From Haloprofundus halophilus (GTDB lineage Archaea; Halobacteriota; Halobacteria; Halobacteriales; Haloferacaceae), in the NCBI RefSeq assembly GCF_003439925.1, contig NZ_QQRR01000001.1, positions 434,001 through 498,000 of the forward strand: a DNA stretch of 64,000 bases. Reading direction: 5' to 3'. The notes below the pieces were generated by a model. That model was not told the DNA's origin. It did not search any database and saw nothing but the letters and a program-made list of their open reading frames with translations. A program made the translations under genes and the position numbers. Positions 9,312-64,000 of this stretch are shown piece after piece; position 1 is the stretch's first letter, and each line of letters starts with the position of its first letter.

Positions 9312-10949
9312 CTACTGCTTCACGAAGACGAACACTTCCCGGTTCCACAGTCCGAGTTCGTAGCGCGTCGACTCGTACCCCTCCAGTCGCCGAGCGACCT
9401 GACTCCGCCTCTCCCCGTCCGCGACGACGACCGCCGGTTCGCCGGCGACCATCGTCAACCCGTTCGGGTCGGCGACGCTCGTCTGTCGCGCGTCGAGGCG
9501 CTCGAAGTACCACGGGAGCGGGAGCCGGTTCCCCCACGCGTCCGACACCGGCGGCCGGCGGTCGCTGTCGGCGTTCAGCGTGTAGAACGCCTCACCGACG
9601 TAGACGACGTCGGGGCCGTCCGTGCGCTCCATCGCCGCCGAGGCGTTTTCGAGCATCGGTTCGAGCGGTTGTGAGGGCTGTGCGTACTGCGCGAGGTCGT
9701 CGTCGGGGCCCGGTTGGCCGTAGACGTTCGCGGCGACGACGCCGCCGACGTGCGCCAGAAGGACGAGCGAGACGAGTGCGACGACGCCGACGCGGGCCGC
9801 TCGGTCGCGTTCGAGTCCGATACGCCCCATCCGTGCGAGCGCCGCCACGCCGAGCGCCGCCGGAAGCGTCAGCGCGGTCACCGTGTGGACGGCGAGCCAC
9901 GGCGCGAACTGCTCGGCGAGCATCGGCACGAGAAGCAGCGAGACGCCGGCCCAGAAGCCGAAGAAGTGCAGCAGCGGTCGCCGCCCGCCGGTCAGATAGC
10001 GGTCGTAGAAGAACGCCCCGACGGCGAGACCGAGCACCGGGAGCGACGCGGTGACGAGCAGTTCGGCGTAGTCGAGGACGTACGGGAGCAGTTCGTGGCC
10101 GTCCGTCCGCCGGTAGTCGACGCGGACGGCCCAGAACTTCCGGAACGACCCGAGAAACGCCGACTCGACCGTCGCCGGGAGCGTCGTCAGGTTCCAGAGG
10201 CCGACGCCGTCGGCGTCGCCGGCGCGGGGCGCGTAGAAGACGAACACCACGCCGAGCAGGAGGAACGTCGAGCGCGCCAGCGGCGTCGCCCGCGAGACGA
10301 GTCCGCGCCGGATGCGTCCGGCGGCCGCGACCGGGTTCGAATCGCCGCGGACGCGGAGGTGGTCGAACGTCAGCACCGCCGCCAGCGCCCAGCAGAGGAG
10401 CGTGACGACCGCGAAGCCCGACGTGGAGAGCAGGAGACCGACTGCGGCGACGCCGGCGTACAGCGACCCGCGACTGTCGGCGTCGACGGCGCGGAGGAAG
10501 CAGCCGACTGCGAGCAGCGAGAACGCGGTCAGTAGCAACTCGCCGCGGGCGAACCGCGAGTAGTAGAGCAGCACCGGTTCGACGGCGAGGACGAGCGCGA
10601 ACGCGACCGTCTCGTCGTCGCGGAGTCGGCTTCGGTAGAGGAGCGCGACGAGCGGGAGCAGCCCGCCCGCGAGCGCGACGACGAGGCGAGCGGTGAAGTC
10701 GTTCGCGCCGAAGAGCGCGAACACGTGGCGGTTGACGAGCGGGAGAAACGTCCCGCCGGCGACGGGGCGGTACTCGAACGCGCCGGTGTCGAGGTAGCGG
10801 AGCGTCCAGTAGCCGACGCGCGCTTCGTCCCAGTGAAACGCCCTCGCGCCGAGTCCGGCGAGACGGGCGACGAGACCGACGACCGCGAGCGCGGCGACCG
10901 CGAGCGTCGCGCGGTCGAACCGGGAGCGGGCGTCGCCGCGAGGTGTCAT
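9312..10949 (-). CDS. agl23: Agl23-like membrane protein (GT-C fold, N-glycosylation/flippase associated)
   Basis: 545 residues with about 11 membrane helices. The first external loop contains HWDEARVGYW (D41/E42), the acidic motif of GT-C type glycosyltransferases, and the C-terminal soluble domain (about 440-545) is alpha/beta. The layout agrees with the family called flippase activity-associated protein Agl23. Such proteins are linked to lipid-linked sugar transfer on the outer face of the membrane. No other glycosylation gene is adjacent here. Downstream is the broken lipoprotein gene; upstream is the tandem-repeat region at 11002-11096. Confidence 0.75.
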   Translation of the reverse strand: MTPRGDARSRFDRATLAVAALAVVGLVARLAGLGARAFHWDEARVGYWTLRYLDTGAFEYRPVAGGTFLPLVNRHVFALFGANDFTARLVVALAGGLLPLVALLYRSRLRDDETVAFALVLAVEPVLLYYSRFARGELLLTAFSLLAVGCFLRAVDADSRGSLYAGVAAVGLLLSTSGFAVVTLLCWALAAVLTFDHLRVRGDSNPVAAAGRIRRGLVSRATPLARSTFLLLGVVFVFYAPRAGDADGVGLWNLTTLPATVESAFLGSFRKFWAVRVDYRRTDGHELLPYVLDYAELLVTASLPVLGLAVGAFFYDRYLTGGRRPLLHFFGFWAGVSLLLVPMLAEQFAPWLAVHTVTALTLPAALGVAALARMGRIGLERDRAARVGVVALVSLVLLAHVGGVVAANVYGQPGPDDDLAQYAQPSQPLEPMLENASAAMERTDGPDVVYVGEAFYTLNADSDRRPPVSDAWGNRLPLPWYFERLDARQTSVADPNGLTMVAGEPAVVVADGERRSQVARRLEGYESTRYELGLWNREVFVFVKQ

Positions 10950-11001
10950 GTCCCTTCCTGCCGCACCCTGGGGTAGAAGCCTTTCGGGTTTCGCCGCTCG
11001 C

Positions 11002-11096
11002 GGCGTCGGTACGTGTTCGTAGCGTCAGTACGGGTTCGCAGCGTCGGTACGGGTTCGTAGCGTCCGTACGGGTTCGTAGCGTCGATACGTGTTCGC
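11002..11096. repeat. Five tandem copies of a 19-bp unit
   Basis: Copies begin at 11002, 11021, 11040, 11059 and 11078, with consensus AGCGTCGGTACGGGTTCGT and one to four changes per copy. The array lies between two divergent genes (9312-10949 leftward, 11146 rightward), so it is in their shared upstream region. The unit length is not a multiple of three and no protein spans it. Confidence 0.85.
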
Positions 11097-11145
11097 AGCG
11101 AGGCGGTTCGCAACCGTCAACAGGCGCAACGACGTACCGCGTCGT

Positions 11146-11418
11146 ATGTCGATACTCGACTCGCTGCCGAGTCGCCCGCTGTCGGACGCCGAACTCGCCT
11201 CGCTGAACCGCGCCGACGCCGTGGAGTTGGCCATCGCCGTCGACGACGGCGGGCCGACCGAGGCGCTGCTGTTGGCGACCGAGTCGTGGGTGAAGGCGCT
11301 CGTGTTCGGCGGCGAGGACGGTGGATGGCGAACCGCGGACACCGTGTCGCTCGACGAGGTGGAGCGGTACGAAGCGCTCAAGCGGTGCGAGGAGAGCGCT
11401 CGGTCGCTCCGCGCCTGA
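11146..11418 (+). CDS. Small hypothetical haloarchaeal protein, 90 aa
   Basis: Starts MSILDSLPSRPLSDAELASL. I do not recognise a named family. The protein is soluble and acidic, with an initial helix (DAELASLNRADAVELAIAV), a central strand region (EALLLATESWVKALVFG) and a C-terminal helix (DEVERYEALKRCEESA). A longer frame from 11089 would run back into the tandem repeats and is rejected. It could be a regulator or structural protein. The gene stands alone between the repeat array and uspA. Confidence 0.7.
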   Translation: MSILDSLPSRPLSDAELASLNRADAVELAIAVDDGGPTEALLLATESWVKALVFGGEDGGWRTADTVSLDEVERYEALKRCEESARSLRA

Positions 11419-60820: not shown

Positions 60821-60847
60821 ATCACGTCGTTGTTCTTCGACTCGCCC

Positions 60848-61762
60848 GTGATAACAGTCGAGGACCTCAGAAAGGAGTACGGCGGCTTCGTCGCCGTCGA
60901 GGGGAGTTCGTTCGAGGTCGACGAGGGGGAGATATTCGGCGTCGTCGGTCCCAACGGGGCGGGGAAGACGACGACGCTGAAGATGCTCTCGGGGCTCGTC
61001 GAACCGACGAGCGGGGCGGCGACGGTCGCCGGCTACGACGCCGCCGACCCGGCGATGCGGGCGTCGCTCGGTTTTCTCCCCGAGGAGTCGCCGCTCTACG
61101 AGGACATGACGCCGCGGTCGTACCTCCGCTTCTTCGCGGACCTCTACGACGTACCCCGCGAGGTGGCGGTTCGGCGGAGCGAGGAGACGCTCGACCGCCT
61201 CGAACTGGAGCACCGCGACCGCCGCCTCGGCGATATGTCGAAGGGGATGAAACGGAAGGTCGCCATCGCGCGGTCGCTCGTCAACGACCCACAGGTCCTC
61301 ATCTACGACGAACCCGCCAGCGGCCTCGACCCGCTGACGACGAACTACGTGCTGGAGTTCACGAAGGAACTCGCCGCGGCGGGCAAGACGGTGCTGTTCA
61401 GCGCGCACAACCTCTACCACGTCGAGAGCGTCTGCGACCGCATCATAATCATGAATCGCGGCGAGATCGTCGCCCGCGGCACCGTCGCCGAGATTCGAGA
61501 GCGACACGGCGAAACGGCGTACCACGTGTTCACGACCGTCGCAGTCGACGGCGCGGACCGGGTCGAGGAGGCGCCCGACGGAGCGGCGCGCTATCGCCGC
61601 GTCGTCGACGATATGGTCGCCGTCGAAGCCGTCCGGAGCGAGGCCGAATCGAGGGGCGGCGAAGTGGTCGACATCCGAACCGAGGAACCGAGCCTCGAAG
61701 CCCTCTTTCTCGACATCGCCGGCGGCGGAACCGTTTCGCCGCCCGCCCGAGGTGAGTCGTGA
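60848..61762 (+). CDS. ABC transporter ATP-binding protein (NatA-like)
   Basis: 304 residues from a GTG start. Walker A is VGPNGAGKTTT (about 33-43), signature LGDMSKGMKRKVAIA, Walker B VLIYDEPASGLDP and a switch histidine in LFSAHNLYH. The C-terminal extension (about 215-304) with MNRGEIVARGTVAEIRERHGET is typical of exporters of the NatA/DrrA type. It overlaps the following permease gene by 4 bases (GTGA) and drives export across the membrane. Confidence 0.92.
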   Translation: MITVEDLRKEYGGFVAVEGSSFEVDEGEIFGVVGPNGAGKTTTLKMLSGLVEPTSGAATVAGYDAADPAMRASLGFLPEESPLYEDMTPRSYLRFFADLYDVPREVAVRRSEETLDRLELEHRDRRLGDMSKGMKRKVAIARSLVNDPQVLIYDEPASGLDPLTTNYVLEFTKELAAAGKTVLFSAHNLYHVESVCDRIIIMNRGEIVARGTVAEIRERHGETAYHVFTTVAVDGADRVEEAPDGAARYRRVVDDMVAVEAVRSEAESRGGEVVDIRTEEPSLEALFLDIAGGGTVSPPARGES

Positions 61763-63666
61763 GCGGTTCGTCGAGAACGCTCGCCGCTCGGTCCGCCGAC
61801 TGGACCCGGAAGACGGTCGCTCGACTCGTCGACTGGACCCGGAAGACGCTCCGCGTCGCCCGCTGGGAGGCCGCCAGGACGGCGGGCGTCTTCGACCGGA
61901 AGACCGCCGGTGCAGCGTTCGCCGCCGCGCTCCTCGTCGGAGCGTTCGGCGCCGCCGCGCTCTCGACGGGCGGGGCGGGCGTCGCCCTCGACGAGAACAT
62001 CTACCGCGTCGGCATCGCGGCCGACAGTCCCTACTACGACGCGGTGGCGGAGAGCCCCCCGCTCGCAGCGCGTCCGCCCGACGAAGCGGCGCTGAGAGAC
62101 GGCGAGATAGACGCGCTGGTCCGTGGCAACGGAGTCGAACCCGCCGACTCCGAGCGCGGCCGCGCGGCCGCCGCCGCCTATCGGTCGGCGGTGCAGTCGT
62201 ACAACGACCGCCGGATGCTCGCCGAGGAGAACCAGTCGGCGGCGTTCCCCGTCGTGGTCGAGATACGGTACGCCGACCGCGGGGAGGCGTCGGGCGGGTC
62301 GGCCGCGACGGACGTCGGCGGCGACACCGAGTCGTCGGGCGGTGACGAGTCGTCGGGCGGCGACGAGTCGTCGAACGCCGAGAGCGAGTCGGGTGCTTCG
62401 GGCGGGACGGGCGAGTCGGCCGGAGCCGACGAGTCGGACAACGCCGAGGGTGACGGGGGTCTCGCAGTCCCCGACGTCGGCGGCAGCGGTGCCCTCTTCG
62501 GCGGCCAGAGCTCCGGGTCGCCGGCTGACATCGCGCCGCCCTTTCCCTTCGGGTCGCTCGTGCTCGCGTTCGCGTTCCTCGTTCCGGTGAACTTCGTCGT
62601 CCAGTCGTACGGCAGCACGATGCTGAACGAGCGCATCAACCGCCGCGGCGAACTGCTTCTCGTCGCGCCGCTGTCGCCGACGAGCATCGTCGCCGGGAAG
62701 ACGCTGCCCTACGCACTGGCGATTCTCGGCGTGACGACGCTCATCGCCGCCCTCGTCGGCGGCGGACTGCTCTCGGTCGCCGCGGTGTTCCCGCTCGCGC
62801 TCGCGTACCTGGCGGCGACGTTCGTCGGCGCGATGTTCGCGCGCTCGTTCAAGGAACTCACGTTCGTCACCGTCGCGCTGTCGGTGTTTCTGACGACGTA
62901 CGCGTTCGTCCCGGCTATCTTCACCGACGTGACGCCCATCGCGCTCATCTCGCCGCTGACGCTCGTCGTCCGCGACCTGCAGGGCGCGGCGGTGTCGGCC
63001 GGCGAGTACGCCTTCGCCACCGGCTCGTTCTACTTCGGGTCGGGCGTGCTGTTCCTGCTCGGCGTCGGCGTCTACCGCGAGGAGGACCTGTTCACCCAGC
63101 GGTCGGTCCCGCTGAAGTTCCTCGACGCGCTCGACAGCCGCCTCTCGGGGAAGCGCTCCGTCGCGGTGCTGAGCGCGCTGTTCATCCCGTTCGTCTTCGT
63201 CGCCGAACTGCTCGCGGTCGCGGTGCTGTTCGCGCTCCCGGTTCAGCTCTCGATGCCGCTTCTCCTGGCGTCGATCGCCGCCGTCGAGGAGTTCGCCAAG
63301 AGCGTCCACGTCTACGCCGGCTTCGAGAAGAACCGCTTCGAGCGGTCGGTGCCGACGGCGGTCGTGTTGGGTTCGCTGTCGGCCGTCGGCTTCTTCGCCG
63401 GCGAGAAAGTGACTGCCGTCGTCCAACTCGTCGGCCTGCCGGAGTTGGCGCTCGGACGGGCGGCGTTCGCCACCTCCGGTCTCCCCGGTATCGGCCCGGC
63501 GGGCGCGGTCGGCCTCCTCCTCGCACCGCTGCTCTTGCACGTCGTCACCGCGAGCCTCACGGCTATCGGCGCGAGCAGGAACCGGCTGCTCTACGTGGCG
63601 TCGCTGGTGGTCGCCGTCGCCGTTCACACCTTCTACAACCTCGCGGTGGTGGTCTCCCTTGCGTGA
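61759..63666 (+). CDS. ABC-2 permease fused to a PrsW-like intramembrane protease domain
   Basis: 635 residues from a GTG start. The N-terminal half has a first helix, a large external loop with an acidic G/S/D/E-rich insert (about 185-240), then five helices as in ABC-2/NatB permeases (NFVVQSYGSTMLNERINRRGELLLVAPLSPTSIVAGK). The C-terminal part (about 470-635) matches PrsW-type glutamic intramembrane proteases: EEFAK (E510, E511), FFAGEK (E549), H594 in LHVVTASLTAIG and H623 in VHTFYNLAVV. All PrsW motifs are present. A fused transporter-protease is unusual. It overlaps the next gene by 8 bases. Confidence 0.82.
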   Translation: MSGSSRTLAARSADWTRKTVARLVDWTRKTLRVARWEAARTAGVFDRKTAGAAFAAALLVGAFGAAALSTGGAGVALDENIYRVGIAADSPYYDAVAESPPLAARPPDEAALRDGEIDALVRGNGVEPADSERGRAAAAAYRSAVQSYNDRRMLAEENQSAAFPVVVEIRYADRGEASGGSAATDVGGDTESSGGDESSGGDESSNAESESGASGGTGESAGADESDNAEGDGGLAVPDVGGSGALFGGQSSGSPADIAPPFPFGSLVLAFAFLVPVNFVVQSYGSTMLNERINRRGELLLVAPLSPTSIVAGKTLPYALAILGVTTLIAALVGGGLLSVAAVFPLALAYLAATFVGAMFARSFKELTFVTVALSVFLTTYAFVPAIFTDVTPIALISPLTLVVRDLQGAAVSAGEYAFATGSFYFGSGVLFLLGVGVYREEDLFTQRSVPLKFLDALDSRLSGKRSVAVLSALFIPFVFVAELLAVAVLFALPVQLSMPLLLASIAAVEEFAKSVHVYAGFEKNRFERSVPTAVVLGSLSAVGFFAGEKVTAVVQLVGLPELALGRAAFATSGLPGIGPAGAVGLLLAPLLLHVVTASLTAIGASRNRLLYVASLVVAVAVHTFYNLAVVVSLA

Positions 63667-64000
63667 CCGACGACTCACCATCGCGCGCCGCGAACTCTCG
63701 GTGCTGCGTTCGGAGAAGACTATCGTGCTGGCGCTCCTCATCCAGCTGTTCATCGCGGCGTTCTCGTCGTTTCTCGTCGTCGGACTCGTCTCGCTGTACG
63801 ACCCCGGCAGCTCGGAGGGGTACGACGTCGACGTCGGCGTCTCGGGGGAGGCTCGCTACGAGCTCGTCTACGCGGCTCACAGCGTCTCGGGGGCGCAGCC
63901 GGTTCTCTTCGACTCGGAGACGGCCGCCCGACAGGCGTTCGACCGTCGACAGGTCGACGCGATTCTCCACACCGACCGCCGCGGCGGGCGCGTACACGTC
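63659..64000 (+). CDS. Second ABC-2 type permease, 3' end outside window
   Basis: Only the first 114 residues are visible, from a TTG start at 63659 (LRDRRLTIARRELSVLRSEK). One membrane helix (about 21-42, TIVLALLIQLFIAAFSSFLVV) and the beginning of an external domain (YDVDVGVSGEARYELVYAAH) are seen, as in NatB-type permeases. It overlaps the fusion gene and probably completes the exporter with it. Confidence 0.78.
   Translation, partial: MRDRRLTIARRELSVLRSEKTIVLALLIQLFIAAFSSFLVVGLVSLYDPGSSEGYDVDVGVSGEARYELVYAAHSVSGAQPVLFDSETAARQAFDRRQVDAILHTDRRGGRVHV

Follow-up and report, generated by a model that had tools for sequence, protein, structure and literature searches.

Intramembrane proteases of the PrsW family (PF13367) include Bacillus subtilis PrsW, HVO_0408 of Haloferax volcanii and a stand-alone PrsW of the genome studied here, and carry EExxK, GFxxxE, an extra histidine and HxxYN in the same order as the protein described below. 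The PrsW model published in eLife in 2015 comprises EExxK, HxxxD and an additional fifth-helix histidine that is absent from the type II CAAX proteases (PMC4602095). Family members have not been described with an ABC permease half, and the protease domain found here is also shorter than theirs, with five helices compared to about eight. PrsW has likewise been seen joined to other domains, an arrangement proposed to link membrane passage with cleavage; the partners named in the excerpts of that source are toxins, another PrsW-like peptidase, PilZ, FHA and others, with no ABC permease among them (PMC3482391).

The same order of an N-terminal permease and a C-terminal glutamate-type intramembrane protease of the same superfamily is found in the NCBIfam family NF041647 (ABC permease subunit/CPBP protease), whose model of 636 positions has about the length of the fusion reported here. 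The protease of NF041647 is by name of the CPBP/Rce1 type, however, whereas the present one is of the PrsW type, and the protein studied here and its relatives score far below the 435-bit cut-off of that family. An ABC permease/CPBP fusion has already been named, and judged by these scores the PrsW-type fusion lies outside it.

In bacteria an intramembrane protease and an ABC exporter are functionally linked in the pairs formed by Eep/RasP and EcsAB/PptAB, although, unlike in the fusion, they are encoded by separate genes and the protease belongs to the site-2 family (PMC7157817, PMC7478892). In Staphylococcus aureus the release of lipoprotein leader peptides needs Eep together with the EcsAB exporter (PMC7157817), and in B. 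subtilis EcsAB acts upstream of RasP (PMC7478892). This bacterial link is known mainly from the genetics of separate proteins, whereas in the archaeal protein described here both partners reside in a single chain.

No description of an ABC permease-PrsW fusion was found in the open-access literature searched. An ABC-protease fusion is not mentioned in the reviews of haloarchaeal membrane proteases PMC9263693 and PMC4343526, the former of which lists HVO_0408 as the single PrsW-like protein; the fusion adds a conserved candidate protease to this haloarchaeal list. In a RefSeq plasmid record a homologue is labelled only 'ABC transporter permease subunit'.

A permease-protease fusion in Haloprofundus halophilus

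The window, that is the whole stretch of 64,000 nucleotides of Haloprofundus halophilus DNA that was analysed, contains the following features.

60830..61762, + strand: ABC ATPase, 310 aa, DrrA/NatA-like, first gene of the unit (PF00005 at 3.2e-29; PF13732 above cut-off)
61759..63666, + strand: fused protein, ABC-2 permease followed by PrsW-type intramembrane protease, 635 aa, single ORF
61840..63078, + strand: ABC-2 permease half, residues ~28-440 (PF12698 match, full-chain model, NosY as best sensible PDB match, loop charges)
63151..63663, + strand: predicted PrsW-type protease half, residues ~465-635, 5 predicted TM helices (PF13367 in homologues; domain model)
63286..63300, + strand: catalytic motif EExxK (E510, E511, K514), invariant in 63 homologues
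63391..63408, + strand: motif FFxxEK (F545-K550, including E549); E549 and K550 invariant, F nearly so
63538..63540, + strand: H594, extra histidine typical of PrsW, invariant (the PrsW-specific fifth-helix histidine of PMC4602095)
63625..63639, + strand: motif HxxYN/D (H623-N627); H623 invariant, Y626 and N627 in at least 90%
63659..64000, + strand: second ABC-2 permease without protease, 349 aa in all, running past the window end (PF12698 at 6.1e-17)

The fused gene starts with GTG and comprises 635 codons with zero internal stops, and the reading of a first-pass annotation, which saw an ABC-2 permease and a C-terminal PrsW-like protease in one polypeptide, is borne out by the ORF, the profiles and the motifs. 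A frameshift or an assembly fusion of two genes, named in advance as an observation that would overturn this reading, was looked for and rejected, as homologues at 48-89% identity show the same single frame and the fusion recurs across the class and the phylum. At all 111 of 111 loci one ORF spans both halves, or the remainder of the fusion where the contig ends. Among the matches listed by the class-wide protein search of 194 genomes the frames are open, except for one match with a single stop. One alignment was made without the row of one locus (L066), the coordinate range of which held a stop. In one incomplete genome (G220) the two halves lie in different frames, possibly owing to a sequencing error. 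Among named organisms, the nearest relative found was Haloprofundus marisrubri, with 82% identity in the fused protein.

The protease half

The protease half contains the PrsW motif set, namely EExxK, GFFxxEK, a histidine in the next-to-last helix and HxxYN, so that the motifs of the published PrsW model (PMC4602095) all have counterparts in the fusion, with N, or in some homologues D, at the last position. EExxK, FxxxE, the extra histidine in the next-to-last core helix and HxxxN/D are likewise invariant or nearly so in the 63 homologues from the phylum, in which no more than eight columns of the protease domain show no variation: E510, E511, K514, E549, K550, P590, H594 and H623. The catalytic positions are hence invariant over the phylum as the remainder of the domain drifts. 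The first-pass annotation had placed E510/E511, E549, H594 and H623 exactly right, and these residues are unchanged in 100 haloarchaeal and 63 phylum sequences; loss of the catalytic residues was sought and seen in no homologue examined. That all five preselected positions should fall among the 8 invariant of 175 has a chance of about 4e-8 if positions are taken as interchangeable, which is not truly so and makes the figure a guide only.

Profile searches point in the same direction. PF13367 matched 28 of the 63 homologous C-terminal domains at E < 1 (best 1.8e-10), and about seven relatives (seven sampled genomes) have fused ORFs that score above its curated cut-off of 23.5 bits. The protein of the window does not, and its protease half gave no match in the Pfam search. 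By its motifs, the protease half is of the PrsW type and not of the Rce1/CPBP type; the latter was rejected because neither motif nor profile scores fit, the motif being EExxK and not EExxxR and PF02517 matching only two of the 63 domains (best 0.033).

The protease domain was modelled with good confidence (pLDDT 89.5, pTM 0.85). A Foldseek comparison of the domain with the PDB gave no match at E <= 0.001, and profile searches of the PDB sequences returned nothing. A weak, non-significant match to APH-1 of gamma-secretase (5a63_C, TM-score 0.49 by query, E = 7.3) is expected for the PrsW/CAAX superfamily and is by itself no evidence. As neither the domain nor the whole chain has a significant PDB match, structure comparison lends weak support only.

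The same genome encodes, outside the window, a stand-alone PrsW of 341 aa (G000:C1:1407400-1407954; L147 1201-2223), in which VEETVKL, GFATIEN, GHVIYSA and IHATYN represent the same motifs in the same order as in the fusion. A profile of the fused domain finds this protein at 33.7 bits. A PF13367 match above the cut-off is present in 19 of 20 sampled relatives.

The permease half

PF12698 (ABC2_membrane_3) scores 20.2 bits against the fused protein of the window, below its cut-off of 31.6, and exceeds the cut-off in four of eight divergent fused relatives and in the second permease, which places the family among the ABC-2 permeases. The full-chain model (pLDDT 77.8, pTM 0.66) comprises an N-terminal helix, TM1, a long region made up of an alpha/beta part and a disordered stretch, and then TM2-TM6. 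Foldseek of the whole chain found no PDB match at E 0.001 or below; the best sensible match of the permease half is NosY, with a Foldseek probability of 0.97 but E = 1.0, and thus not significant by E-value. Like NosY/NosDFY and other ABC-2 permeases the fused permease is modelled with a large external region, but these systems have no protease domain.

Residues ~70-263 are very acidic, with 38 acidic to 11 basic residues per sequence; K/R-rich loops are located at 291-306, 437-465, 520-531 and 603-610. A topology with the N-terminus inside, 11 helices, the C-terminus outside and residues ~70-263 external would fit the fused protein. Residues ~180-260 (window ~62295-62540), in the putative external region, form an acidic Gly/Ser-rich low-complexity stretch that differs in length among relatives and is modelled with low confidence.

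The three-gene unit

The permease-PrsW fusion lies in the middle of a compact three-gene unit, between the ATPase gene and that of the second permease. Neither partner gene appeared in the first-pass annotation, which had pointed to the genomic partners of the fusion as worth a search. The second permease, whose full ORF is L002 7659-8708, is a conserved third gene. Stop codon of the ATPase and start codon of the fusion overlap in GTGA, both in the window and at 71 of 73 haloarchaeal loci, and at nearly all haloarchaeal loci the three genes follow in this order on one strand. Co-encoded with a cognate ATPase and a partner permease, the fusion is classed as part of a putative ABC-2 exporter. 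In the sampled phylum genomes outside the haloarchaea, fusion and second permease stay paired, and the ATPase, where found, is usually divergent. Among ORFs of at least 100 aa a census of neighbours revealed no constant substrate or regulator gene, and only the three-gene core is constant.

Distribution and history

A search for the fusion across archaea, as envisaged at the outset, was run in the class and in the phylum. A protein search located it in 147 of 194 class genomes, several Haloferax species among the carriers of the unit. A profile search of 247 genomes from across the phylum gave 120 with the fusion, many of the matches being about 600 residues long; a second phylum sampling found it in 144 of 294 genomes, largely the same ones. 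The other fusion-bearing groups presumably include methanogens, given the make-up of the phylum. When the window protein and a divergent homologue were used as tblastn queries against plasmids, no bacterial homologues were found and only one Haladaptatus plasmid was matched.

The three-gene unit is kept or lost together. The second permease was looked for in 20 fusion-free genomes and is missing from 19 of them, but is present in all five fusion-bearing controls; the remaining genome belongs to the same genus as that of the window and retains only the C-terminal half of the second permease. This congener (L155, G055), compared with L002 4970-8221 (window 60970-64221), carries a deletion scar with the flanks in place: its DNA aligns up to the equivalent of 60970, inside the ATPase, and resumes at 64221, inside the second permease. 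It has lost most of the ATPase, the whole fusion and half of the second permease by one deletion. Since the unit is absent from about a quarter of the sampled class, it is not essential.

The evolutionary distances of permease core and protease correlate in a mirror-tree comparison (r = 0.92, 62 sequences), and haloarchaea form an exact clade in the trees of both halves (support 0.999 and 0.965). As judged from these trees, the two halves are inherited together, and the simplest reading would be a single fusion before the haloarchaea arose, followed by common inheritance with losses.

Proposed mechanism and alternatives

Most ABC-2 units of this kind serve in export. We propose that the three genes would form one ABC exporter, in which the ATPase serves two different permeases that may pair as a heterodimer, one of them bearing a predicted active PrsW-type protease at its C-terminus. 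The targets of cleavage would be hydrophobic and membrane-embedded, for instance the leader peptides of lipoproteins and of secreted proteins, or short membrane proteins, and the ATP-powered ABC part could bring the substrate to the protease or expel the fragments. A single archaeal complex might thereby do both jobs of the separate bacterial pairs (Eep/RasP or Eep/RseP with EcsAB or PptAB). That the unit is such a heterodimeric exporter, cleaving hydrophobic membrane-embedded peptides and moving the fragments as a one-piece counterpart of Eep/RasP with EcsAB/PptAB, is possible, at a likelihood that we place somewhat short of even. The precedent is a functional one and not one of descent, because RasP and Eep are site-2 proteases of another family.

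The permanent joining of permease and protease suggests that cutting and transport may occur as one step. The first-pass annotation had read export coupled to proteolysis from the fusion, which is partly supported: coupling is suggested by the age of the fusion, its retained catalytic residues and the joint retention or loss of the unit, and it is a plausible prediction that a peptide or lipoprotein would be cut as it is exported or afterwards. As no further gene is constantly linked, the genes for the substrates probably lie elsewhere in the genome, and the lack of a dedicated neighbouring substrate gene is what dispersed substrates would lead one to expect.

What speaks against a coupled exporter is that PrsW is known above all for regulation, as a site-1 protease, the role that it has in Bacillus (PMC9263693; PMC4602095). 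The main rival is a signalling system based on regulated intramembrane proteolysis. Here the ABC part would be a sensor of envelope stress, of a drug or of a peptide and would gate the cleavage of a membrane-anchored regulator by the protease, transport being secondary. The description of EcsAB as a regulator of RasP (PMC7478892) and the long external region modelled for the fused permease would agree with this, but the census of neighbouring ORFs of at least 100 aa found no constantly linked regulator gene, and signalling is on balance unlikely. Archaea, moreover, to our knowledge lack the anti-sigma-factor/sigma-factor system that PrsW serves in Bacillus, and cleavage of an anti-sigma factor is for this reason excluded as the archaeal role. 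Membrane quality control, where the ABC part would draw out of the bilayer those membrane proteins or lipoproteins that are damaged or orphaned, for the protease to clip, is distinctly less probable than signalling: a general housekeeping pool of substrates would suit the wide, mostly vertical distribution and the lack of a dedicated substrate gene, yet some genomes manage without the unit, including the congener with its clean deletion, and the extraction of membrane proteins is not a known activity of such ABC-2 units.

The same distribution, phylum-wide and mostly vertical, tells against self-protection from, or maturation of, a halocin-like antimicrobial peptide, as does the failure to find a constantly linked precursor gene among ORFs of at least 100 aa. 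An association of CAAX-type proteases with bacteriocin systems is common, and a role resembling that of the CPBP proteins near bacteriocin genes would also recall the tie of Bacillus PrsW to antimicrobial-peptide resistance (PMC4602095); even so, we regard it as very unlikely. It is equally improbable that the protease fold lacks proteolytic activity and serves as a structural or regulatory appendage, comparable to APH-1 in gamma-secretase, to the chains of which the domain model bears the weak, non-significant similarity reported above (5a63_C), since none of the catalytic positions varies across the phylum, in contrast to the drifting remainder of the domain.

To return to the coupled exporter, the broader claim that it represents an archaeal machine found phylum-wide, a single enzyme uniting ATP-driven membrane transport with intramembrane proteolysis so as to make extracellular peptides or control envelope proteins, is put forward more tentatively than the mechanism itself. 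If true, these archaea would own a peptide-release or envelope-signalling pathway that has not yet been described. The single-chain fusion is conserved over an archaeal phylum to which haloarchaea amenable to genetics belong, and provides a defined protein for asking whether transport and cleavage are coupled.

Variation at other haloarchaeal loci

An ORF that by eye resembles the SRPBCC family in sequence is located divergently upstream of the ATPase at 16 of 29 haloarchaeal loci (e.g. L093 4578-5348). Halorussus salinisoli carries the full unit (L049) and, elsewhere, an extra copy of the fusion (L054 5986-7947) without ATPase or second permease, which lies near a TnpB-like, transposon-associated ORF (9940-11229) and ORFs made up of repeated units.
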